64,000 nt of DNA, taken from contig NC_017527.1 in assembly GCF_000235565.1 (NCBI RefSeq), positions 1,240,001 to 1,304,000 of the forward strand. Direction: 5' to 3'. Shown piece by piece: positions 41,690 through 54,796 of this stretch (its first letter is position 1; each line of letters starts with the position of its first letter). Under the pieces are notes generated by a model. It was not told where the DNA came from and did no database searches. It saw only the letters and a list, made by a program, of their open reading frames with translations. The stretch is from Methanothrix harundinacea 6Ac (GTDB lineage Archaea; Halobacteriota; Methanosarcinia; Methanotrichales; Methanotrichaceae). A program made the position numbers and the translations under genes.

Positions 41690-41777
41690 GCGGGGGTCGC
41701 CAAGCCAGGTCAACGGCGCTAGGTTCAGGGCCTAGTCTCGCAGGAGTTCGTGGGTTCGAATCCCATCCCCCGCACCA
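41690..41777 (+). tRNA. tRNA-Leu (anticodon CAG), CCA encoded
   Basis: A class II tRNA: acceptor stem GCGGGGG pairs with CCCCCGC, discriminator A then encoded CCA (41775-41777). The anticodon arm is CTAGG-TTCAGGG-CCTAG with CAG at the anticodon position, and a long variable arm (TCTCGCAGGAGTTC region) precedes the T arm GTGGG-TTCGAAT-CCCAT. The 3' half from 41717 is duplicated at 50897, so it serves as the attachment site of an integrated element; the gene itself remains complete. Confidence 0.95.
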
Positions 41778-41802
41778 ATTTAACTTTACTGATATCGATT
41801 TT
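41717..41802 (+). repeat. attL: tRNA-proximal copy of the element's 86-bp direct repeat
   Basis: Identical to 50897-50982 except at 41781 (t/a) and 41783 (a/c). The first 64 bp (41717-41780) match exactly and comprise the anticodon arm to the CCA end of tRNA-Leu plus three bases; the remaining 22 bp continue as actttactgatatcgattt-like DNA on both sides. Integration within this homology leaves a working tRNA gene here. Confidence 0.93.
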
Positions 41803-42019
41803 GGTGTTTTCTACCAAACCCTTGATGTAATAACCTGTGCCTTTATCGTAAAAATAGTTAATCGCGAAATAGGTACAACCTTGTGCCTACATGATTCTGT
41901 ATTTATAAATCAAGCTGAATGTAACAACAAAGCCCCCTAATTAGAACTTTTAGAATAATAATTCAGAAATAATTTTAAAGGGCAGAGACAAAGGAGACAT
42001 AATGCTTAATCTCTTTTAT

Positions 42020-42200
42020 GTTAACACCTCCATCAGAAGGTAAGAGAAAAGAAGGAATCTCTCACCTTCTATCGGTGGGTGAAGAAGAGAAGCCCCACCG
42101 TTTGGAGGTCCGACAAAGGGTAAAGGATAGAACCCCCTTGTCGAAAACTGACGATCTAGCCCCTATTAGCCTCTGAAGATGTGGGGAACACCTTCGTCAT
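42020..42200 (-). ncRNA. Candidate multi-branched structured RNA of the integrated element
   Basis: Five helices can be drawn: P1 42026-42031 with 42104-42109 closing a two-hairpin branch; P2 42035-42046 with 42059-42070 (12 bp, one non-Watson-Crick position); P3 42073-42079 with 42094-42100 (7 bp); P4 42111-42120 with 42134-42143 (one non-WC position); P5 42149-42154 with 42194-42199, with an inner CCCC/GGGG pairing. The two exceptions (42042:42063 and 42117:42137) are A-C on the plus strand but G-U wobbles on the minus strand, pointing to minus-strand transcription. A TATA-like AAAATATAAAATC (minus, about 42205-42217) sits just upstream. Class not recognised. Confidence 0.5.
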
Positions 42201-42235
42201 CGATAGATTTTATATTTTTGCTCAAATCAGATGTT

Positions 42236-42436
42236 TTAATCTACCTCATAAGATAGGCTCTCATATCGGATCAAGATGCTTTCGGCTATAAGATTCAGAG
42301 CTTTATATATATTATCGTCAACGAATTGATTTAGAGTTAGAGATTTTAGAAAATTCTGGAATTCCTCACAATTCTCTAAAATTTGGGGCTTTGAATACAT
42401 CCCAAAAGTCCCGCCTTCTGTTTTTTTGACTTTCAT
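42236..42436 (-). CDS. Hypothetical element protein, 66 aa
   Basis: MKVKKTEGGTFGMYSKPQIL, then a mostly helical remainder (NCEEFQNFLKSLTLNQFVDD, LNLIAESILIRYESLSYEV). AGGAGA precedes the ATG and the start overlaps the preceding gene's stop (ATGA), so it is the last gene of a three-gene minus-strand operon. Family not recognised. Confidence 0.55.
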   Translation of the reverse strand: MKVKKTEGGTFGMYSKPQILENCEEFQNFLKSLTLNQFVDDNIYKALNLIAESILIRYESLSYEVD

Positions 42437-42672
42437 TTATAATTTCTCCTTAGTTTAATCTCTTCAATTGGCATAAATGCCGCGAACCCTAAATCAAGGT
42501 CTTCCCCCATCAACTTTTTTAAATTTATTAGATATTTTAATTTTGCATTTTCGTCGCTTAAACTTGCAGCAAAACCGAACTCTTCGGTTGAATCCTCTAC
42601 ATTTAGCAATTCATTTAGTTGGCGTCTATGTTCTTCTTTATCCAACTTGATCAACCCCGCAAACTTTATCAA
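42433..42672 (-). CDS. Hypothetical element protein, up to 79 aa
   Basis: The frame begins with TTG at 42670-42672; internal TTG codons at the seventh and tenth positions are alternatives, so the start is uncertain. It is helical and charged (LDKEEHRRQLNELLNVED, DENAKLKYLINLKKLMGEDL). The 5' end overlaps the upstream gene by about 35 bp and the 3' end overlaps the downstream gene by 4 bp, so all three are probably translated from one mRNA. Family not recognised. Confidence 0.5.
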   Translation of the reverse strand: MIKFAGLIKLDKEEHRRQLNELLNVEDSTEEFGFAASLSDENAKLKYLINLKKLMGEDLDLGFAAFMPIEEIKLRRNYK

Positions 42673-43252
42673 TATAAGCTAAAATCTCGGCTTCATTAGC
42701 CCGCCAGCCCCCTATTTGTTTTTCGAACTCATCAATAGTTTTTTGAAGATTCTGAATTTTTCTGGACTCATCCATGATGCCGACACGAAGATAACTGCTG
42801 GGGGGCAATGTTCCATCACCCAGGATTTCACGTCCCCTCTTAACGTATCCGGCTACCTGCTGACTATGCTTTTTTGTAATACGAATTTCCAGAGAATCCA
42901 ATTCCGCATTAAGTAAAAGCTGGTTACTGACCAACTGAGATTTTAACCATTCATACTCTGAAACACAGCATATTTCCGTATATTTTTGGCAAAACTTCTC
43001 TATTTGCAGAATCTTAGCAAGGTTCTTCTCTCTCTCAGCCTCAACTCTTTTAAATTTTTCAAAACTTTTAGAAGATTGGGGAGCTGCAATCTCGGGGTTT
43101 TTTCCAGAGAAGTCTACAGAATATTCTTGTTTCAATCCGTTCTTCAGGTTCCGATATTCCAGGGTTAATAACTTATCTCTCTCAGCTAAAGAAATACATT
43201 TATCACCCTCAATATTTCTGTGTCCATTATTATAATATTCTATAATTTGCAT
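42638..43252 (-). CDS. Hypothetical coiled-coil element protein, 204 aa
   Basis: First gene of the minus-strand operon at the left end of the element, with ATG 43250-43252 and an AT-rich promoter (CTTAAATATATC on the minus strand, about 43283-43295). Long amphipathic helices (FEKFKRVEAEREKNLAKILQ, LLLNAELDSLEIRITKKHSQ, IQNLQKTIDEFEKQIGGW) suggest a coiled-coil protein; a Cys-rich patch FCQKYTEICCVSEYEW lies in the middle. Divergently transcribed from the ribbon-helix-helix gene at 43375. Function unknown. Confidence 0.6.
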   Translation of the reverse strand: MQIIEYYNNGHRNIEGDKCISLAERDKLLTLEYRNLKNGLKQEYSVDFSGKNPEIAAPQSSKSFEKFKRVEAEREKNLAKILQIEKFCQKYTEICCVSEYEWLKSQLVSNQLLLNAELDSLEIRITKKHSQQVAGYVKRGREILGDGTLPPSSYLRVGIMDESRKIQNLQKTIDEFEKQIGGWRANEAEILAYIDKVCGVDQVG

Positions 43253-43374
43253 AGTCTTAAATATGTTTTGGGATATATAGATATATTTAAGTTTTTAAAT
43301 TGGTTTTTTGTTGGTATATTCCAAATTAGTTTTATGGATAAACTTATTATATACTTTATATATAAAAAAGAGCT

Positions 43375-43509
43375 ATGGTAAAAATAATCGTAAACGTCCC
43401 GGACAACCTTTTAGATAAGTTGGAATCGTATAAGACTAACAATTATTACACAAGTAGAAATGCTTTATTAGTTGAAGCTATCAGAGATTTTCTGAAAAAT
43501 GAGGGGTGA
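43375..43509 (+). CDS. Ribbon-helix-helix (CopG-like) DNA-binding protein, 44 aa
   Basis: MVKIIVNVPDNLLDKLESYK, then SRNALLVEAIRDFLKNEG. The N-terminal strand KIIVNVP followed by two helices with a S-R-N/S turn is the CopG/MetJ/Arc fold. Such proteins bind DNA as dimers and often repress their own operon or control copy number. The TGA overlaps the ribosome-binding region of the next gene. TATA-like atactttatatata about 30 bp upstream. Probably the element's master repressor (inference). Confidence 0.75.
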   Translation: MVKIIVNVPDNLLDKLESYKTNNYYTSRNALLVEAIRDFLKNEG

Positions 43510-43513
43510 TTTT

Positions 43514-43867
43514 ATGAGTAACAAAGACGAGATGATTAAACAAGCCATAAAAGAATTTTTAAAAGATACAAAAACTATGGCGGTAGAGTTCAACGCCTTC
43601 CCCGGTCAAAACATTGAAGAAGTACCTATTGAAGAACTGGTTCGGTTCAGTCTCTCAATGCAGACCTTTTGGCTATCCAAACTCTTGAAAGACGGAGAGA
43701 GCATTAACAAAAATTTAATAACTTCTCTCCGTCTTATAAATGAGATGTCTAAATCGGTGATTGGAGTAAGGCAACAGATAACGAAGGACACAAAGCTCCA
43801 AGTCAACGACCCTATGAAAGCCCTTCAAGACTCTTTAAAAAAGAGCATGAAAAAGGAGGTTAAATAA
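43514..43867 (+). CDS. Hypothetical element protein, 117 aa
   Basis: MSNKDEMIKQAIKEFLKDTK; the ATG at 43514 has GAGGGGTGA five bases upstream. Largely helical (VPIEELVRFSLSMQTFWLSK, NKNLITSLRLINEMSKSVIG) with a basic C-terminus (SLKKSMKKEVK). It follows the ribbon-helix-helix gene by 4 bp and precedes the next by 2 bp. No family recognised. Confidence 0.65.
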   Translation: MSNKDEMIKQAIKEFLKDTKTMAVEFNAFPGQNIEEVPIEELVRFSLSMQTFWLSKLLKDGESINKNLITSLRLINEMSKSVIGVRQQITKDTKLQVNDPMKALQDSLKKSMKKEVK

Positions 43868-43869
43868 AA

Positions 43870-44175
43870 ATGAGACCACCATATACGTTTAACAACGTTT
43901 TGCGGGACTTAAAATTAATATTGCATGAAAATGATAATTATTGCGATATTTTATTTAACAACCTGGAGAACGGGTTTATCAAAATTGAATCCATGCAAGA
44001 GCTGAGGAACGACCCAAAAACATTAACCTTGGCTATCTACCAGTTGATTATGGGTGATTTGTTAAACATATTCCTTTTAATGGACTCCATGATCTCAGAA
44101 GATGAAGAGGAAGAGATAGAGGTAGAAGAGGAGGAGGATTCTCCCCAATATTCCGGTGGTTTTTTTGATTATTAA
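43870..44175 (+). CDS. Hypothetical element protein with acidic tail, 101 aa
   Basis: MRPPYTFNNVLRDLKLILHE; helical body (LTLAIYQLIMGDLLNIFLLM), then an almost uninterrupted acidic run (SEDEEEEIEVEEEEDS) and a short aromatic end (YSGGFFDY). AAGGAGG eight to nine bases upstream is a strong ribosome-binding site. Acidic tails of this kind often mimic DNA or bind basic partners; the following basic 32-aa peptide could be one (speculation). Confidence 0.65.
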   Translation: MRPPYTFNNVLRDLKLILHENDNYCDILFNNLENGFIKIESMQELRNDPKTLTLAIYQLIMGDLLNIFLLMDSMISEDEEEEIEVEEEEDSPQYSGGFFDY

Positions 44176-44288
44176 ACGAATAATATATAAGCCTACCTAT
44201 TTTTTAGTATCTACTTATGAGGTTGGGCCGGTCCATCGGACTTTGTTAGGAAAAGGTTCTTATTTTAAAATCTCAAGAGGGTTTGACT

Positions 44289-44387
44289 ATGAATAATAAA
44301 AATAAACATCCTAAAGATAAGGGTAAAGAGAAAAGGCCAAAACGCCAGAGAAAGAGATCAGATAGAGATTTTAAAATAATAGTTTAG
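44289..44387 (+). CDS. Very basic 32-aa peptide
   Basis: MNNKNKHPKDKGKEKRPKRQ and then RKRSDRDFKIIV. Lys/Arg make up nearly half of the residues. AAGAGGG seven to ten bases upstream. The small size and composition make the call tentative, but the frame starts and stops between well-supported genes with its own spacing. Could bind nucleic acid or the acidic protein encoded just upstream. Confidence 0.35.
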   Translation: MNNKNKHPKDKGKEKRPKRQRKRSDRDFKIIV

Positions 44388-44447
44388 TTCGATAGAAAAG
44401 CTTATATACTAGAAGGTATATGTATGCTTACTTAGGAGGTAAATGAT

Positions 44448-44588
44448 ATGTTAATTCATGATAAAGTTTGCTCTTTTAGAGTCAGTCCCGGACTAGGGAC
44501 AAAGATAGAGAACAGAATAAAGGAAATGGAAATGACTCCATCGGAATACTACCGTTATCTAATAAGAAGGGATTTAGGAGAGATTTAA
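44448..44588 (+). CDS. Ribbon-helix-helix-like protein, 46 aa
   Basis: MLIHDKVCSFRVSPGLGTKI with helix ENRIKEMEMTPSEYYRYLIR and RRDLGEI. A strand (CSFRVSP) followed by two helices and a T-P-S-E-Y turn fits a short RHH protein. AGGAGG is eight bases before the ATG and a TATA-like cttatatact lies about 48 bp upstream. The stop is 1 bp from the ASCH gene start, so the two form an operon. Confidence 0.65.
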   Translation: MLIHDKVCSFRVSPGLGTKIENRIKEMEMTPSEYYRYLIRRDLGEI

Positions 44589-44589
44589 A

Positions 44590-44976
44590 ATGATTTTTAC
44601 TTTGGACCATATACTGAAAATTTTAGATGGAACTAAAACTATGACGCGACGGTCTGTTAAAGGGCGACATTATAAAGTTGATCAAGATTATGCGGTTCAA
44701 CCGCATAGGAATAAGCCGTCTATGTTTAGGATAGCCATAACAGGTAAAAAGCTTGAACGACTTGGAGATATCACCCCAGAGGATGTAAAACTAGAAGGCT
44801 ATGGTTCAAAAGAGGAGTTTATAGAGGCGTGGAGATCTGTTAATGGGGGGTATAATCCCCAGGCTGAGGTTATTGCTTATACTTTTAAACTAGACCCCGT
44901 TTATAAAGCAATAGGAATAGGAGAGATGAGAAAACTTAAAAAAATTGAAAGGGTTTGTGGGAACAAACCAGTTTAG
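44590..44976 (+). CDS. ASCH domain protein
   Basis: 128 aa. MIFTLDHILKILDGTKTMTR is the ASCH start (I-L-x-G-x-K-T-x-x-x-R), MFRIAITGKKLERLGDITPE continues the PUA-like barrel, and EEFIEAWRSVNGGYNPQAEV is the usual C-terminal helix and loop. ASCH domains bind RNA or modified nucleosides; some are ribonucleases or amidohydrolases. On mobile elements they may process host RNA. Coupled to the RHH gene just upstream. Confidence 0.8.
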   Translation: MIFTLDHILKILDGTKTMTRRSVKGRHYKVDQDYAVQPHRNKPSMFRIAITGKKLERLGDITPEDVKLEGYGSKEEFIEAWRSVNGGYNPQAEVIAYTFKLDPVYKAIGIGEMRKLKKIERVCGNKPV

Positions 44977-45086
44977 GAGAACAAAGCTTATGGTGGAGGA
45001 ATACCAAACGCTTAAGTAGAGATTCTTCTTTTACTATTTAAGCTTTTCGGTTATTCCTTCTTAAATCTATTAGGAGGAATAATAAT

Positions 45087-46844
45087 ATGGATTTAACAAG
45101 TTTAACCCAAAATGAATTGGTAGAGAGAAAAATATATGGCTTTCATAAGCCATCTAAAAAGCAACTAGAGGAAGAAAAACTTCAAGCTGAAATGGAATAT
45201 TTAGATGAACTAATGCGTGAAGAAATTAGAGCGGAACTTGTAAAAGAATTTGAACAAAAGGCTAAAATAGAAAAGCTATTAGCTAAACAAGATAAAAGGT
45301 CTGCTACAGAGATAACATTAGATTTAATTTTAAATAGCAATGTTGAATTATGGCAAAGTGAGGGAGAAGGTTACATAACATTTGAACTAGACGGCCATCT
45401 TGAAAACCATCCCATTAGATCTAAAAAAGGAAGGTTGTACCCTGCTAAAGTTTATTATGAGTCTGAAGGTAAAGCCCTTAACAAAAACGCTCTTGAGTTG
45501 GTTCTAACAGAACTTGAAAATCGGGCTTTGTTTAATGGGAAAGAGTATCCTGTCTTCTTACGTGTCGGTAAAGATAATGACGGCTACATTTATCATGATC
45601 TTTGTAATGAAAATTGGGAAGTTGTTAGAATTGGGGCTAATGGTGTTTGGCTTGATCAGAATCCGCCCATCAAGTTTATCCGTAGCGATAATATGAAAGC
45701 CCTACCTTATCCTAAATGGTGCACCATTGATGATGATGATCCTAAACTTAGAGATTATATCGACGATCTACTTAATGACCTCTGGATGATCACAAACCTA
45801 GAGAATGACTACAAAGGCCAGGTCTTCTTTTGGAGTGCGTTATTAGGGGCTCTAAAGCCAGATAAACCATATCCTGTATTGTTTGTTACCGGAGAAAAAG
45901 GGTCTGCTAAATCTAGTTTTTCCCGTATATTCGGTTTAACCATAGACCCCAAGCACGTCCAATTAGTGAAAGCTCCTACAAAAGAACAAGACCTATATGT
46001 AGCGGCAAAAAACAATTGGATTCTAAGCTTTGATAACTCTTCTGGAATACCCGCTCCTATAGCTGACGCTATGGCATCTATAGCCACTGGTGGAGGTTTT
46101 ACGTCTAGAGAGTTGTACTCTGATAATACTGAAAAGACCTATAGAGCCGACCGGCTACAGTTGATTAATGGTATCGGGAACCTAACCCATAGACCGGACC
46201 TATTAGATAGAGCCCTACATATTCATCTTAAGCATATTCCGCAACATAAAAGGCTGACAGAACGTGAAATTAACAAAATTTTTGAAGAGTTGCATCCCAA
46301 GCTGTTATCTCTGCTATATGCTACCATATCAAACGGCTTATACTTCCGGGACCAAGTTTGTTTAGAATGTCTTCCCAGGATGGCAGACTTTGCGTTATGG
46401 ATATGTGAATGCCTAGAGGATAACAGGTATCTATGGCAGTTTTGCATGGGGGAGGAATTTTTAGACGTTCTCGAAGGTTCTATCTCTGATGCATGGGTTG
46501 AAATCATGGAGACAGACGCTTTTACTAAGAGTTTAGCTGAATACATCACGAAAAATCCAGATGCAACGGTAATTCAAACACAAGTATTTTATGAAGAAAT
46601 TTTAGATGCTGCTGGCTTAGATAAGTATCATGTGCCTGATGGATTCCCGAAAGCTCCAAAGTCTTTATGGTCTTTTATTGAACGTTCTGCACCAGTAATT
46701 AGAGAGGCTTTAAAGGTTGATATCCAACGGTCTGTTAAAGAAAATGTTGTGTATATAATTATCAATAGACTAGAAGATCAACCGCCGAAAGAACAAAGGC
46801 AAACCGAAATAACGGTAAATCCTGAGTCAAATGAGCCAAAATAA
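45087..46844 (+). CDS. D5-like/SF3-type replication ATPase
   Basis: 585 aa. An N-terminal Lys/Glu-rich helical part of about 75 residues, a middle region (GEGYITFELDGHLENHPIRS) and then the ATPase: PYPVLFVTGEKGSAKSSFSR (Walker A G-x-x-G-S-A-K-S), NNWILSFDNSSGIPAPIADA (Walker B-like, sensor), and RPDLLDRALHIHLKHIP. This matches the D5/poxvirus-like helicases that archaeal and phage elements use to start replication. The start ATG is preceded by AGGAGGAATAAT. A putative iteron origin lies just downstream. No archaeo-eukaryotic primase motif is evident. Confidence 0.8.
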   Translation: MDLTSLTQNELVERKIYGFHKPSKKQLEEEKLQAEMEYLDELMREEIRAELVKEFEQKAKIEKLLAKQDKRSATEITLDLILNSNVELWQSEGEGYITFELDGHLENHPIRSKKGRLYPAKVYYESEGKALNKNALELVLTELENRALFNGKEYPVFLRVGKDNDGYIYHDLCNENWEVVRIGANGVWLDQNPPIKFIRSDNMKALPYPKWCTIDDDDPKLRDYIDDLLNDLWMITNLENDYKGQVFFWSALLGALKPDKPYPVLFVTGEKGSAKSSFSRIFGLTIDPKHVQLVKAPTKEQDLYVAAKNNWILSFDNSSGIPAPIADAMASIATGGGFTSRELYSDNTEKTYRADRLQLINGIGNLTHRPDLLDRALHIHLKHIPQHKRLTEREINKIFEELHPKLLSLLYATISNGLYFRDQVCLECLPRMADFALWICECLEDNRYLWQFCMGEEFLDVLEGSISDAWVEIMETDAFTKSLAEYITKNPDATVIQTQVFYEEILDAAGLDKYHVPDGFPKAPKSLWSFIERSAPVIREALKVDIQRSVKENVVYIIINRLEDQPPKEQRQTEITVNPESNEPK

Positions 46845-47017
46845 TTTAGCTCAGGAAAATTTTTTGTTAAAATCGCTATCTGTTGGCTTATCCTGAGTCA
46901 AATGAGTCATATGAGCCAAATTTTAAACTTGGAATTTTTGAGATATAATTATATGATATAATATAGAAGAGAAAAGACAAAGTAGAAGATTTGACTCATT
47001 TGACTCATTTGGCTCCT
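46821..47017. repeat. Iteron-like TGAGTCAAA repeats flanking an AT-rich core: putative replication origin
   Basis: The motif TGAGTCAAATGAGCC occurs at 46823-46837 and, with an added TGAGTCA step, at 46894-46917. An inverted set lies at 46990-47014 (ttgactcatttgactcatttggct), so 46894-46920 and 46990-47014 form a large inverted repeat. Between them is a very AT-rich core (about 46925-46975) that includes atataattatatgatataatata. Position just after the replication ATPase is typical of a plasmid origin. Confidence 0.5.
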
Positions 47018-47546
47018 CCAATCATGTAGCCAAGAGCGGCCTAATGTTGGACGATTGAAAAATTGACTAAACCTTAAGCTTGAAGTCCGGCATTTTGGAA
47101 TTAGGAAAAATTTTCCTAATTGTTTTAGAAAACAAATACCTCGAAATGAGGTAATTATTTTGTAAAATTAAAAGTATATACTCTATATATACTGTTTTAC
47201 CTTGTATATATCTTTTAGATATACAATATAATTAAATATTAAAGATTATGTTAAAGTCGTTTGTATATATGCGACGACCATAAGGTTAAAATAAGCCAGA
47301 AATAAATAAAAAAAATATAAATTACTTTTATTTAACTAGATGACGATCAAAAAGCTTTAGCTGTCAAAGCTCGCCAGCGACCACCGAAAAGATTTTAATA
47401 AACATCATAAAATTTAGAATGATAAAATGGAATCGATATCAGTAGAGGGTGTTAAGCTATAATCCAAGGGTCTATTTGCCGATCAAGTTTTTACTAATAA
47501 TAAGAAGTAGAAACTTATATATGGTAAAGCCCCACCAGTATAAGAT
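47018..47546. other. AT-rich non-coding segment with palindromes
   Basis: No credible gene. It contains a 23-bp palindrome (47099-47121, arms aattaggaaaa/ttttcctaatt) and a hairpin at 47137-47153 (tacctc/gaggta), followed by long TATA-rich stretches. These may be part of the replication origin or terminators of the ATPase gene and promoter of the recombinase at 47547. Confidence 0.55.
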
Positions 47547-48119
47547 ATGATAACTAAGTTGATTGAGGTCGAAGAGTTCCATAGGCTTATCTCAGTACTT
47601 CATGGTCGAGACCGCTTAATAGTTGAACTTCTAGCAAGTACCGGATTAAGGGTCTCTGAGTTAGTCCAGTTGAAGAGGGGCGATATAGACCTTGAGGCTC
47701 AACTTATCCGCTTAAACGCCACCAAAACTAAAACACAAACCTATAGAGAGGTAATAATTCCAGCTCCATTAGTTCCAGATCTTAAACGGTACATGGATCA
47801 ACTTGAAGGTGAGTTCCTATTCCCAGGTCAAGGTAAACCCCACGTAACCAGCCAGAGAATAAGGCAGATAGTCCATGATGGAGCTGTAAAGGCTGGAATC
47901 CAAGTCGCCTATCGTGATAACACCAAAGGCAAAAGGAATCTATGGAAGGTTACGCCCCATACATTACGGAGCCTCCATGCAATCCATAGTCTGGACTGTG
48001 GAATTCCCATCTCTGACCTTCAAAGCCAGTTAGGACATAGTTCTTTAGCTTCAACCTCTAGGTACTTGGAGGCGGGGGTTAACCACAGAAGAAAATCATA
48101 TAAAAAATTTAAATTTTAG
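47547..48119 (+). CDS. Tyrosine recombinase, catalytic domain only
   Basis: 190 aa. Catalytic residues in order: Arg in LLASTGLRVSELVQLKRGDID, Lys region (TKTKTQTYREVIIP), H-x-x-R in VTPHTLRSLHAIHS, GHSS in LQSQLGHSSLASTSRYLEAG with the nucleophile Tyr. The usual N-terminal core-binding (SAM-like) domain is missing: the protein begins right at the catalytic domain, as in short archaeal Xer-like or plasmid resolvase recombinases. It may resolve dimers of the element or assist the integrase. Confidence 0.85.
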   Translation: MITKLIEVEEFHRLISVLHGRDRLIVELLASTGLRVSELVQLKRGDIDLEAQLIRLNATKTKTQTYREVIIPAPLVPDLKRYMDQLEGEFLFPGQGKPHVTSQRIRQIVHDGAVKAGIQVAYRDNTKGKRNLWKVTPHTLRSLHAIHSLDCGIPISDLQSQLGHSSLASTSRYLEAGVNHRRKSYKKFKF

Positions 48120-48124
48120 ATTTC

Positions 48125-48559
48125 TTACGATTTTCTAACAAAATTATACTCCCAATAGATCAAGTATTCAATATAGTACTCTCTGGTACCCTTAGGCACC
48201 TCATAAACAACCTTTCCAGAAACAACATCGCCATCTTGAATCGTTTTAATCGGCAAAGTGTCAATCGAGGGATCAAATGTTGCATGAGCGCATGTATATA
48301 GAACGTCATTAACGTAAGCATCAAAATTGTATGGAGAAACGTCGAATTTTGAATAACCATGGTTTTCAAGCTCGATATCAACAACCATATATACATAACC
48401 AGGTTTTGCCTGCCAAGGATTATTTCCAAAACCAATTTTATCGGTTGTGTAAGAACTATAATCCCAGAGAATATACTTGTCATCTCCAACTGCGGAACCA
48501 CACATAATCAAAAACATCAATAGAGCAATCCCTAAGCTTTTTACCGTTTCTGGTATCAT
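48125..48559 (-). CDS. Exported DUF4352-like protein
   Basis: 144 aa. Signal peptide (MIPETVKSLGIALLMFLIMC, cut near GSAVGDD). The rest is a beta-sandwich typical of DUF4352/TRAPP-like surface proteins: YVYMVVDIELENHGYSKFDV, FDAYVNDVLYTCAHATFD, DGDVVSGKVVYEVPKGTREYYI. Function unknown. AGGTGAC precedes the ATG; 12 bp separate it from the upstream exported-protein gene. Confidence 0.65.
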   Translation of the reverse strand: MIPETVKSLGIALLMFLIMCGSAVGDDKYILWDYSSYTTDKIGFGNNPWQAKPGYVYMVVDIELENHGYSKFDVSPYNFDAYVNDVLYTCAHATFDPSIDTLPIKTIQDGDVVSGKVVYEVPKGTREYYIEYLIYWEYNFVRKS

Positions 48560-48571
48560 ATTTTATGTCAC

Positions 48572-48967
48572 CTACCAAGTTATATGGTCTGCATACGAAA
48601 CTTTAGCACCGAGGGCAAGTTCTGACTCATCCGGATAATACACTCCTATAATGTAATTATAGATCCCTTCACCAATTTCTTTTCCGGGCGGATCATCGGG
48701 GCTGAATGTCTTTACCAGTCTCACGAAGTTATCACCTAATTCTTTTCCGTATTTCTCCGAAGTAGACCAACCAACAATAAGAGCGAGAGAAAGAGTATAA
48801 TCATCCTGGATAATCGCTGCATCCTGAACTTGGGAATATCCCTCTATAGAGATAATAGCTAATTCTTTTGCTTCTTCACTTACTATAGGTGCATTCTCTC
48901 CGGCAACCATACCACAAGTAAGTAGGCAGCCCAAAAGAATGGATGCTATTGCAGTTTTCAACATCAT
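48572..48967 (-). CDS. Exported hypothetical protein, 131 aa
   Basis: Signal peptide MMLKTAIASILLGCLLTCGM (cut near VAGENA), with a strong AGGAGGAGC SD six bases from the ATG. The mature part is mixed (SIEGYSQVQDAAIIQDDYTL, NFVRLVKTFSPDDPPGKEIG) and ends in a hydrophilic domain. It resembles no family I recognise. Precedes the DUF4352-like gene in the same operon. Confidence 0.6.
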   Translation of the reverse strand: MMLKTAIASILLGCLLTCGMVAGENAPIVSEEAKELAIISIEGYSQVQDAAIIQDDYTLSLALIVGWSTSEKYGKELGDNFVRLVKTFSPDDPPGKEIGEGIYNYIIGVYYPDESELALGAKVSYADHITW

Positions 48968-49112
48968 TTTGCTCCTCCTAGGATTACAATTTTGAATTGA
49001 TCATTTCATTATAAAAGAAGGTTTCGGCAGGGTTATCTCAAAGGTGTCACCTTTAGCCACTGTAGCGATCTTGCACATTGATTTAGATGTTGTTCAAGTT
49101 CTATAAAGAATA

Positions 49113-49766
49113 TTAGATTATTTCTAATATACTTCTTTCTCGAATCGTCTCATTTTCTCCAAAAGCAAATGATGCTAATAAATCATATAGCGGTTTTTGT
49201 ATAACTTTATCATCATCTGCTCCATACCATTCATACGCCATCATATCATAAGTATTATCAGAAGAAAATATAGCCCTTATACCTATAAAACTGTTATTAT
49301 ACTCTGGTTTAATCCAAACAATAACCCAATTTAAATTATATTGATCCATAAAAAACGTTGCATATTCTTCACCATCCGGTTTAATGCTTAATCCAGTTCC
49401 TCCGCTAAATGCGGTACCAATATTTATGATATTCTTTTTATAATATTCACAAATCGCATCATTTACATACCACGGTGTCAGGTCTTTAATGACTCTCCAG
49501 TTGACTTCCTCAGGTTTTACATGTTGGAGAAAACCCCTTTGATCATGAATAAAATAATAAATAATATTATCTAACTCTTCATTTGATAAGTAAACCTTAT
49601 CTATTCTTATGGCTGATATGTTATCTGATATTATAGTTTTGTTTGTATTATTTTCTGCTATATACCAACCATCGGGGATAGAAATAGAAAAGTTCCCATC
49701 TAGGATATCTTCAGCTGTCCCTAGTCCTATAAAGAGGAATAATACGGCTAAGTATAGTTCCTTCAT
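49113..49766 (-). CDS. Exported hypothetical protein, 217 aa
   Basis: Signal peptide MKELYLAVLFLFIGLGTAED. The mature region is Asn/Asp/Tyr/Ile-rich beta structure (NFSISIPDGWYIAENNTNKT, YNLNWVIVWIKPEYNNSFIG) resembling PsbP/lipoprotein-like sandwich folds seen in methanogen surface proteins. No family assigned. About 145 bp lie between it and the next exported-protein gene, so it has its own or a shared upstream promoter. Confidence 0.6.
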   Translation of the reverse strand: MKELYLAVLFLFIGLGTAEDILDGNFSISIPDGWYIAENNTNKTIISDNISAIRIDKVYLSNEELDNIIYYFIHDQRGFLQHVKPEEVNWRVIKDLTPWYVNDAICEYYKKNIINIGTAFSGGTGLSIKPDGEEYATFFMDQYNLNWVIVWIKPEYNNSFIGIRAIFSSDNTYDMMAYEWYGADDDKVIQKPLYDLLASFAFGENETIRERSILEII

Positions 49767-49839
49767 AGTATGTCCAAAGAAGGCTATACTATGTATATTT
49801 TATGGCTATTTTTTAAAATGATGATGCCCTGATAAAATA

Positions 49840-50715
49840 TCACAACACTAAATACTCCTCATACATCTTCCTCTTAGTTTCATTCGCGACGTGCGCATAC
49901 CTCAAAGTCGTTCTAATATCCTTATGCCTTAATAATTCTTTGATTATTCTAATGTCGCAACCTTTAGCAACCATAATTGTGGCTGGACTATGCCTACTAA
50001 AAACGTGAACCGCTCCAGGCTTCTTTATTCCAGCCTTCTTTTTATAACCCATAAACATCCTATGAATATCCCCTCTATCCCAAAGGTTGAAGTTATCAGT
50101 GAAGAATAACGGGTATTTACCCTCGACTTCTATTTTTGGTCGAATATTCAAGTAGATCCTGAGAGTTTCTACGCATTCATCATTCAAAAGAGCTATGTCG
50201 TCCCTACCCCCTTTTGTTTCCCGAAGCCTTATAGTCCTTTTGTCTAAATCTAAGTCATTATCCTCAAGCTTGGATAATTCCCCTGATCTAAGACACCCAT
50301 AGAAAAGGGTTTTAAGCATAGCTAAATGCTTAATGTTGCTGCAGACACTAAAAATATTTAATACATCATTTTCATCAAAATAATATGGTAGGCTGTCATT
50401 TCTGGTCAGTATTTTTGTAGACCAATCAATGTTTTTCATCTCAAAATATTTTTTTAAGGCGAAAACCGTGTTGTTAACATGGGATTTAGAAGCCCCCTGA
50501 TCAAGCAAAAGGTCTCTATAATCATCTGCTTTTTTCGTACAAGGTTCATTTGGTCGCGAATACTCAATAAATTTGCCTACCCTTCCACTGTAGAGACTGA
50601 TGGTTTGATAACGATAACCTTGGTTAGTTAGAAAACGTTTGTAGTTTTCTACAATAGTTTCAAGTTTGTGCTCCTCTGCTGTTTGGACGTTCCAATTGAC
50701 TTTTGCTTTTCCCAT
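49840..50715 (-). CDS. int: Tyrosine recombinase (integrase) of the element
   Basis: 291 aa with both domains. N-terminal core-binding helices (LETIVENYKRFLTNQGYRYQ, VNNTVFALKKYFEMKNIDWS) precede the catalytic domain: Arg in LKTLFYGCLRSGELSKLEDN, Lys in RLRETKGGRDDI, the Arg box HVFSRHSPATIMVAKG, and LLRHKDIRTTLRYAHV ending with the nucleophile Tyr. The first box residue is Val rather than the usual His (V-F-S-R-H), and the Gly of GHKD is Arg; both are tolerated variants elsewhere. Its position next to attR marks it as the integrase. Confidence 0.9.
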   Translation of the reverse strand: MGKAKVNWNVQTAEEHKLETIVENYKRFLTNQGYRYQTISLYSGRVGKFIEYSRPNEPCTKKADDYRDLLLDQGASKSHVNNTVFALKKYFEMKNIDWSTKILTRNDSLPYYFDENDVLNIFSVCSNIKHLAMLKTLFYGCLRSGELSKLEDNDLDLDKRTIRLRETKGGRDDIALLNDECVETLRIYLNIRPKIEVEGKYPLFFTDNFNLWDRGDIHRMFMGYKKKAGIKKPGAVHVFSRHSPATIMVAKGCDIRIIKELLRHKDIRTTLRYAHVANETKRKMYEEYLVL

Positions 50716-50817
50716 ATCTCATCCAACCCTCAAATTAGGTACAACCTTTTATCACAGGATTGGTAGAGCATCCAATATGTTCAGACAAATTGGTATCTGT
50801 AGAGACTTAAAACCCTA

Positions 50818-50893
50818 AGTTACCACCGTTACGGATAGTTACCACCGCTACGGATAGTTGCCACCGTTACGGATAGTCGCCACCATTACGGAT
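50818..50893. repeat. Four 19-bp imperfect tandem repeats abutting attR
   Basis: Units at 50818, 50837, 50856 and 50875, each of the form agtTaccaccgttacggat with one to three changes. They lie on the element side, 4 bp before the attR repeat and just upstream of the integrase gene, which is where integrase arm-binding or excisionase sites are found. Confidence 0.8.
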
Positions 50894-50896
50894 AGT

Positions 50897-50982
50897 CGCT
50901 AGGTTCAGGGCCTAGTCTCGCAGGAGTTCGTGGGTTCGAATCCCATCCCCCGCACCAATTAACCTTTACTGATATCGATTTT
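50897..50982 (+). repeat. attR: distal copy of the element's 86-bp direct repeat
   Basis: Matches 41717-41802 with two mismatches; contains the 3' half of tRNA-Leu with its encoded CCA. The 5' half of the tRNA is absent here, so this copy cannot make a tRNA. Confidence 0.93.
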
Positions 50983-51868: not shown

Positions 51869-54796
51869 CTACAAAATAGAATAATTCACCATATTTTTAT
51901 AGAACTTTTCAGCATACTCCTTAACCATCCTCTTTGAGCTGAAATGCGACCCTGTATTCATAGTTGCTTCTTTCATCACATTGACCCAACTCCTAGGCAC
52001 ACCTCCGTCATCCACCCTATAGTAGAGAGGTACAACTTCCTTTTCCAGTATATCGTATATAGTGGCTGCATCCTCGTCATCCCTGACACTCTCGTCGATA
52101 TCCTTAGCTCCCTCGAAGCCCCATCCGTTCTTGCCGTTATATCCCTCAACCCACCAACCACCGAATATGCTGATCTGTGGAACACCGTTGAGTGATGCCA
52201 TCATCCCACTAGTTCCACATGCTTCCATTGAAGGTATTGGATTGTTTAACCACAAGTCCACACCACGTAGCATATACTGAGCAATGTATTGATCGTAGTC
52301 TTCTACGAATGCAATCCTTCCCCCAAAGTCCTTGTTTGAGGCCACATTTAAGATCTGTTGTAAGAGGATCTTTCCATACTGGTCATCGGGATGGGCTTTG
52401 CCTGCAAAAATGATCTGGACCGGCCTGTAAGGGTCTGTTAAAATTTTCCTGAGTCTTTCCAAATCTCGGAATATAAGTGTCGCCCTATTGTAAGAAGCGA
52501 ATTGGTGTACAAAACCTATAGTAAGAACATTCGGGTCGAGCATAACACCAAAAGGCGTAATGGTCTTTGGATTTGGTTCGTTACACGAGTACCAGTTCTT
52601 CCTAGCCCTCTCTGTGATTTCGTTAAGTAGCTTCAATTTCATACGTCGATGATGCTTCCACAAGACCGCGTCAGGAATCTCGTCCATCAGCTCCCAAATC
52701 CGGGGGTCGTCATGTTCTTCCAACCATCCCCTACCAAGATATTTGTTGAAAATTTTGTTTCCTAAATCACGATCTATCCAAGTGGGAACGTGGATTCCGT
52801 TGGTTACGTTATCAATTGGAAGTTCGTCATTAGGATAGTCGGACCAGAAGTTGCGCCACATATCTATAACTATTTCCTGATGTCGTTTACTGACGCAATT
52901 GCGATAGGCGGACATACGCAGGGCGAAAGCGGTCATGTCAAAGCCGCTGGCCGGGTCTCTGGGATCGATCCCGAGTTTGAAGAAATCCTCACAACTTATT
53001 CCAAGGAGTCGGATATACGTCCTAAAATATTTATCCATCAGCTGGAACGAAAATTTATCCTGATTTGCAGGAACCAGTGTATGGGTAGTGAAAAGCGTTG
53101 TCTTCTTAACCACTTCTTCAGCTTCCTCACGTCTGCTGCCCGTTTCAATCCGTTCTCTTAGTCTCTCTAGGATGGCGAAGGCAGGTTGACCCTCGTTAAG
53201 GTGGATTATTGAGGGTTCAATCCCCAAAGCTTTCAATACCCTGACTCCACCGATGCCTAGGACGATATCTTGCCTCAGCTTCTGTTCAGAGTCCCTGGTA
53301 TGAATTCTGTTCGATATTATCTGGTCTTCGGGTTCGTTGGCGTCGACAGCAGTATCCATAAGGTAGAGATCGGCTCTTCCTACTTGGACCTTCCAAACCG
53401 CGACATATATCGGTTTTTCTAATGCTGAAATCTCCACAAGGAGGGGGTCTCCGTTTTCGTCCAGTAGCTTCTTAACAGGAGCGTTCTCTCTCTCTAACCT
53501 CTCACAGGCACCTGCTTGCCATCCGTCGGATGTGATCCTTTGGAGGAGATACCCCTCTGGGTACATGAAGCCAACTCCAACAATGGGAACCCCGAGATCG
53601 CTGCACTCCTTCAGATAGTCTCCCGCCAGAAAACCAAGACCATCCGCATAGACTGGAAGGGCATGATGCAGACCATACTCTGCAGAAAAGTATGCAATCT
53701 TACAATCCTTTGGATCTGCAACGTTAGTTTTGAACCATCCGCTTGCAGGGTCCATTCCTCTCTCAAACTTGGCCATAACTGCATCGTAGTACCTCAAAAA
53801 ACGGGGGTCCATAGACGCGAGCTTGAAGACGCCGTCGTCGAGCTCGTGCATCATCTTGACGGGGTTATGGCCGTTTCGGCTCCAAGCCGCCCGACCGCCA
53901 AGCATTATGAAAAGCTCTCTTCCTTCGGGATGCCAGCTCCACCACAGGTTGTAGGCTAGATTGCCCAAATTACGTATCCTATCAGGAATATGCGTAAAAG
54001 TCTGCTTCAAGGTATAACGTGGAGACAGTCGGGCATTATTCTCAATAACAATGCTTCTGACTTTAAAATTACTATTGTGAGCAAGTACTACCTCACCGCG
54101 CACGTTCAGTGCCCACTTCATCGGTATTTGTTTTCGATCTAATTTCATTTGCTCTTGGATATAAGAGTAAATGCCATCCATTGTGATATCGCCATTATTG
54201 TTAGCAGCACCCCAACTTCGAATACCTTCAACTAAGTGCTTTGTAAATATACCATTATTCTCTGATTCACTCTCCCAAGATTGCTGAATACTAGTTGAAG
54301 AGGTTAGGATGTAAGTACCGCTCGTTTCTTTAAACAGCGATGTTAGTTGTTCGTCGACGCTACCGCGGCTAAGTTCGTCACCAGCCAAACCACTATAGCA
54401 GCAATCTAAAATTATAATCACATTATTAACATATGAATCATCTATAAATCCCTTTATATTTTCTATTGGAATAGATGTTGATTTTAAAAGACTTATATCG
54501 GTATTAGCGGTAGCAAGGTGAAGCTTTCCAGCACGGTCTTGTTTACCGTGGCCCGAATAATAAATCAAAACTAAATCGTATTTACTGGCTTTTTTGAAGA
54601 CTTTTTCCATCTCTTTCATAATTTCGAAATTATCACAATTCTCTAACGGCAAAGTTTCAGAGAAATTTCCATAATCCTTGGAAATGAGCACTTCGTTGAA
54701 ATCTTTTACATCATTTACAGGACACTTCAAGTTATGCAAGTTAGAGTCCTGGAATTGACTACTAGCAATCAAAACAGCGTAACGATTTTCATTCAT
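51869..54796 (-). CDS. Caspase-like (C14) protease fused to a degenerate alpha-glucan phosphorylase
   Basis: 975 aa. Residues 1-245 form a caspase/metacaspase-like domain: MNENRYAVLIASSQFQDSNL, the His in LIYYSGHGKQD (His83) and the Cys in IIILDCCYSGLAGDE (Cys133), so the dyad looks intact. Residues about 265-975 are a complete alpha-glucan phosphorylase fold of the short (TIGR02094-type) class: LGNLAYNLWWSWHPEGRELF, IAYFSAEYGLHHALPVYADG, NVTNGIHVPTWI, IFAGKAHPDDQYGK. However, Met866 stands where the PLP-binding Lys should be (EACGTSGMMASLNG), GFVHQFASYNRA replaces GFARRFATYKRA, and NEGQPAF and PANQD have lost their His. The phosphorylase is probably not catalytic. Start overlaps the upstream membrane-protein gene. 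Confidence 0.85.
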   Translation of the reverse strand: MNENRYAVLIASSQFQDSNLHNLKCPVNDVKDFNEVLISKDYGNFSETLPLENCDNFEIMKEMEKVFKKASKYDLVLIYYSGHGKQDRAGKLHLATANTDISLLKSTSIPIENIKGFIDDSYVNNVIIILDCCYSGLAGDELSRGSVDEQLTSLFKETSGTYILTSSTSIQQSWESESENNGIFTKHLVEGIRSWGAANNNGDITMDGIYSYIQEQMKLDRKQIPMKWALNVRGEVVLAHNSNFKVRSIVIENNARLSPRYTLKQTFTHIPDRIRNLGNLAYNLWWSWHPEGRELFIMLGGRAAWSRNGHNPVKMMHELDDGVFKLASMDPRFLRYYDAVMAKFERGMDPASGWFKTNVADPKDCKIAYFSAEYGLHHALPVYADGLGFLAGDYLKECSDLGVPIVGVGFMYPEGYLLQRITSDGWQAGACERLERENAPVKKLLDENGDPLLVEISALEKPIYVAVWKVQVGRADLYLMDTAVDANEPEDQIISNRIHTRDSEQKLRQDIVLGIGGVRVLKALGIEPSIIHLNEGQPAFAILERLRERIETGSRREEAEEVVKKTTLFTTHTLVPANQDKFSFQLMDKYFRTYIRLLGISCEDFFKLGIDPRDPASGFDMTAFALRMSAYRNCVSKRHQEIVIDMWRNFWSDYPNDELPIDNVTNGIHVPTWIDRDLGNKIFNKYLGRGWLEEHDDPRIWELMDEIPDAVLWKHHRRMKLKLLNEITERARKNWYSCNEPNPKTITPFGVMLDPNVLTIGFVHQFASYNRATLIFRDLERLRKILTDPYRPVQIIFAGKAHPDDQYGKILLQQILNVASNKDFGGRIAFVEDYDQYIAQYMLRGVDLWLNNPIPSMEACGTSGMMASLNGVPQISIFGGWWVEGYNGKNGWGFEGAKDIDESVRDDEDAATIYDILEKEVVPLYYRVDDGGVPRSWVNVMKEATMNTGSHFSSKRMVKEYAEKFYKNMVNYSIL

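Follow-up and report, generated by a model that had tools for sequence, protein, structure and literature searches.

Methanothrix is an ecologically important methanogen for which the literature search found no small-RNA study. Archaeal plasmids and integrated elements have, to our knowledge, yielded few non-coding RNAs. A strongly folding stretch on an integrative element of Methanothrix harundinacea 6Ac raises several questions: is it the gene of an RNA? From which strand would this RNA be made? And what might it do in the element that carries it? The stretch lies in a window of 64,000 nucleotides (the whole piece of DNA that was analysed) from the genome of Methanosaeta (Methanothrix) harundinacea 6Ac, which comprises a chromosome of 2,559,043 bp and a plasmid, pH6Ac, of 11,991 bp (PMC3349665).

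The tRNA-Leu(CAG) gene (41690-41777) is the insertion site of a 9.2-kb integrative element whose att repeats (41717-41802 and 50897-50982) are 98% identical over 86 bp, and whose GC content is about 36%, against about 64% outside the element and about 61% in the genome. It encodes two tyrosine recombinases, one Rep-like and one ASCH-like protein, and several further proteins that match no known family (Table 1). The 204-aa product of the orphan operon next to the structure has no relative in the 238 genomes of the class, PADLOC gave no match for 10 element proteins (the reading as defence genes was dropped), and a search by pattern for integrase relatives in viral and genome contigs confirmed none. 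A 19-nt repeat, AGTTACCACCGTTACGGAT, is present in four head-to-tail copies (50818-50893) in the interval that separates the recombinase gene from attR; these are possibly recombinase arm sites. Beyond the element, a 975-aa ORF (51869-54796, minus strand) has a caspase domain (Peptidase_C14) at its N terminus, joined with DUF3417 and a carbohydrate phosphorylase, a putative and unusual fusion.

Table 1. Positions of the features discussed, numbered within the window unless another sequence is named.
Feature	Positions	Strand	Remarks
Integrative element	41717-50982		flanked by 86-bp att repeats at tRNA-Leu(CAG)
Block between att and RNA	41803-41982		about 70-75% conserved in congener (L075:10164-10304)
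BRE/TATA-like box	41966-41981	plus	GAAATAATTTTAAAGG; best of the local sites, with score 8.0 and rank 42 of 18,208
Structured core	42020-42146	minus	three-way junction (P2 and P3 closed by P1) and the separate hairpin P4
P1	42026-42032/42103-42109	minus	7 bp, closes the junction, ACCUCCA/UGGAGGU
P2 hairpin	42034-42071	minus	14 bp in fold; 12-bp part 42035-42046/42059-42070; loop 42048-42057 (UUCCUUCUUU; plus strand AAAGAAGGAA)
P3 hairpin	42073-42079/42094-42100	minus	7 bp; 14-nt loop 42080-42093 (GCUUCUCUUCUUCA)
P4 hairpin	42110-42144	minus	10-11 bp; 10-bp part 42111-42120/42134-42143; loop 42121-42133 (GUUCUAUCCUUUA)
P5, weaker fifth helix	42150-42201	minus	outer 42150-42154/42197-42201, inner 42175-42182/42188-42195
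BRE/TATA-like box	42205-42220	minus	CAAAAATATAAAATCT; score 7.4, rank 55 of 18,208 element positions
T run	42208-42219	plus	TTTTATATTTTT; terminator-like, just after structure
Orphan operon (204-aa, 79-aa and 66-aa ORFs)	42236-43252	minus	reads towards RNA
Rep-like protein	45087-46844	plus	relatives include one on plasmid pH6Ac and others in family genomes
Tyrosine recombinase intB	49840-50715	minus	
Hairpin GTTATGTGACT...AGTCACATAAC	L021 235-280, 7883-7929; L022 13328-13373, 14676-14720; L023 6728-6773		

About 220 bp inward of the left att repeat, the DNA specifies a multi-branch fold that is beyond chance. All the helices named in an earlier note on this DNA were found: P1 to P4 form with pair probabilities of 0.94-1.0 on the minus strand, where P4 precedes the three-way junction, and the outer part of P5 reaches only 0.41. 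On the minus strand the core has a folding energy of -59.9 kcal/mol, whereas 1000 dinucleotide shuffles give -35.0 +/- 3.5 and none was as good (z -7.21); the plus strand has a z of -4.16, with 1/1000 shuffles as good, and the 182-nt stretch gives -4.67 (minus) and -3.19 (plus). This is also the GC-richest 181-nt segment of the element, with a GC fraction of 0.49 where the element averages 0.36.

Does this fold belong to any known class? ARAGORN found only the tRNA-Leu, and with Rfam 15 only this tRNA (41690-41774) passed the gathering cut-off, the matches at a weak threshold being far below their cut-offs and at chance level, in agreement with the initial impression that the class was not a recognised one. 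A hammerhead-like CUGAUGG, judged by eye, was rejected, as its junction bases are paired and it lacks an A behind the second G. A covariance model built from the single sequence retrieved nothing except the query itself from 50 family genomes and 238 class genomes, and nothing above chance from 393 genomes of the phylum; unfiltered scans of the nearest elements were empty. DNA searches gave no convincing match in the family genomes and short weak matches only in plasmids and phages, and a gapped word search in genome contigs gave none. Three stray matches were discarded: a lone exact 19-mer in viral contigs, which lies inside a peptidyl-prolyl isomerase-like gene and is thus put down to chance; a 14.7-bit covariance match in L029, where the local DNA folds no better than shuffles; and a 21-bit match in G494, whose E value of 0.096 in the 393-genome scan is at chance level. 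Since no homologue, and hence no compensatory base change, was found in the class and phylum genomes, the claim of a new ncRNA family cannot be made, although missing homologues are not surprising for a fast-changing element.

The nearest comparison is offered by a congener (G012), in which the block from the att repeat onwards (41717-41982) is about 75% conserved. This similarity ends before the structure and includes the plus-strand promoter sequence, and the matching place in the congener shows no unusual fold (z -0.07 and +0.63). At 674-10310 of L075, from the same genome, lie a related integrase element at a tRNA-Leu(GAG) gene and, beyond its right att, a remnant that matches the left end of the 6Ac element, an arrangement that points to tandem or successive insertions.

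The question of the strand is less easily settled. The earlier note held that the wobble pairs fix it, counting as the only mismatches two that are A-C on the plus strand and G-U on the minus. Both exist, one within P2 (42042/42063) and one within P4 (42117/42137), but P5 holds two more of the same kind (42179/42191 and 42152/42199), so that at 4/4 internal transition mismatches the minus strand has G-U where the plus has A-C. Over 196 nt, the minus fold is better than the plus by 12.6 kcal/mol; the pair probabilities on minus and plus are 0.94 and 0.87 for P1, and 0.98 and 0.45 for P4. When the organism's own RNAs are taken as a yardstick, the sense strand of the rRNA has the better fold in 95% of 84 overlapping windows and is never worse by at least 12 kcal/mol. 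The wobbles speak for the minus strand without fixing it: of 30 own tRNAs, only 17 have the better fold on the sense strand, which means that fold energy alone can guide the choice of strand poorly, and the three hairpin loops are pyrimidine-rich on the minus strand but purine at 32/37 bases on the plus, the composition usual for RNA loops; own rRNA loops are 62% purine in the sense fold and 39% in the antisense fold.

The promoters were scored with a matrix trained on 30 own tRNA genes (consensus CGAAAcgTTTATATA), in which the TATA box precedes the tRNA by about 33 nt. The TATA-like box reported earlier on the minus strand is present, but its score is an ordinary one, and the correct placement claimed for it is not supported: by the geometry of the own promoters it would start an RNA at about 42180, inside P5, which would cut this helix. 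The box is moreover the same AT run as the T run of the plus strand, read backwards. Near the 3' end of a minus-strand RNA, no T-rich run resembling a terminator occurs, the nearest T5 being at about 41850-41854. The promoter-like site with the highest score in the element is found elsewhere, on the minus strand at 45034-45049 (CGAAAAGCTTAAATAG, score 14.3), directed away from rep and antisense to the ASCH gene.

These signals leave room for a non-coding RNA of about 215 nt read from the plus strand, convergent with the orphan operon, whose A/G-rich loops would be contact sites for protein or RNA. It would run from the best-scoring promoter of the vicinity, with a predicted start at about 42004-42006, shortly before the structure, to a T-rich run that follows the structure immediately and is one of only two plus-strand runs of 10 T in 12 in the element; these two signals flank the whole structure and equal the minus-strand box in quality. 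Its loops would be purine-rich like those of sense rRNA, and its promoter sequence is kept in the congener, although the conserved block may there just stop at the edge of a deletion. What makes this reading doubtful is the fold itself, which is weaker on the plus strand, loses P5, drops P4 to the low probability given above and places A-C mismatches inside P2 and P4, together with an energy deficit of a size that the true strand never showed in the rRNA windows. The minus strand, as an RNA of its own or as the tail of the operon, accordingly appears more likely than the plus and slightly better than an even bet, the remainder falling to readings at the DNA level or without function.

The reading that we favour, tentatively and at somewhat less than even confidence, is that of a minus-strand gene of the element for a non-coding small RNA at least about 160 nt long, a candidate orphan that would lower translation through its loops. 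Transcription would begin at about 42180 from a weak promoter of its own, and the transcript would fold into the P1-P4 core and display three pyrimidine-rich, UCCUU-like loops (UUCCUUCUUU, GCUUCUCUUCUUCA and GUUCUAUCCUUUA). These could base-pair with the purine-rich ribosome-binding sites of mRNAs of the element (or of the host), and this pairing would lower translation and so tune genes that the element uses for replication or carries as cargo. On the minus strand the loops do resemble anti-Shine-Dalgarno sequences, and against 13 start regions of the element their pairing exceeds that with coding interiors as a non-significant trend (p 0.06, 0.065 and 0.14), while the plus-strand loops show no such preference (p 0.81-0.99). 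The best partners of the P2 loop are rep, ASCH, orf101 and p131, genes with clear Shine-Dalgarno sequences. A bolder version, in which the loops would be multivalent anti-Shine-Dalgarno decoys that regulate translation of both replication and cargo genes and the RNA, beside attP, would represent a new class of element-borne archaeal small RNA, is unlikely. In the excised circle, whose geometry follows from the att repeats, the minus strand runs from the RNA through attP towards intB, which lies downstream, and the context of the RNA would therefore change on integration, a statement about geometry and not functional evidence.

How does this candidate compare with characterized regulators? In Methanosarcina mazei, sRNA154 is reported to mask ribosome-binding sites with a loop, and masking of such sites is reported for sRNA41 as well (PMC5867862). 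Like them, the candidate is intergenic and structured and comes from the same archaeal class, and its minus-strand loops would be complementary to Shine-Dalgarno-like sequences; it differs in lying on a mobile element and in a target trend of p ~0.06, and the likeness is one of description, the covariance model being without a match in the Methanosarcinia genomes searched. With copy-control antisense RNAs (CopA/CopT, RNAI/RNAII, pMV158 RNAII) it shares being a stem-loop RNA on a replicon, but, unlike them, it is not antisense to the rep leader, which lies 3 kb away. That leader carries a 12-bp hairpin (45049-45085) that covers the Shine-Dalgarno sequence (z -3.6 for the 101-nt leader) and may, as modelled, be a possible translational switch, and, with the Shine-Dalgarno sequence hidden in this way, RNA-level control of rep is plausible. 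Antisense control of rep by the candidate was nonetheless rejected: the longest match of the P2 loop to the leader is just 10 nt (45053-45062), 17% of shuffles match some leader likewise, and cofolding lent no support, the energies of the full RNA with the leaders being nothing special for Rep.

The same minus-strand fold would also arise if the stretch were the structured 3' UTR of the orphan operon, with a role in RNA stability or as a 3'-end element and with no separate small RNA. The last stop codon (42236) lies only 35 nt upstream of P5, no T run intervenes on the minus strand, and the minus fold is the preferred one; yet the multi-branch fold exceeds what a protective hairpin needs, and the 204-aa protein, being an orphan, leaves this reading without comparative support. 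We regard it as unlikely.

We consider it quite unlikely that the inverted repeats act at the level of DNA, as single- or double-stranded sites for integration (an arm) or replication. The structure does adjoin attL/attP, and inverted repeats occur also at 46895-47015 of the element and in related plasmids, but a nested three-way junction with a G-U bias is RNA-like, and the conserved block on the att side ends before the structure. Furthermore, a better candidate for the replication origin is found just 3' of rep (46815-47015), where iteron-like repeats (TGAGTCAAATGAGCCA) accompany strong inverted repeats and the strongest fold of the element in a 160-nt scan (z -6.8). In the plasmids, the hairpin GTTATGTGACT...AGTCACATAAC, with a spacing of 34-36 nt, has two copies in pH6Ac, two in the G009 element and one in L023, replicons that all encode related Rep proteins, and is probably a replication or Rep-binding site. 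These are inverted repeats on the same replicon family as the candidate, but single, long and AT-rich hairpins of near-constant spacing, unlike the compact multi-branch core. Very unlikely, finally, is a functionless chance or decaying cluster of inverted repeats, to which the restriction to one genome and the lack of conservation in every relative searched would point, but which sits poorly with z = -7.2, the highest GC of the element and four helices with intact pairing.

What the locus means for the biology of Methanothrix depends on expression. If the stretch is not expressed, it would be an example of how strong single-sequence folds can mislead; if it is, it would provide a concrete and testable case of RNA control in a mobile element of this genus.
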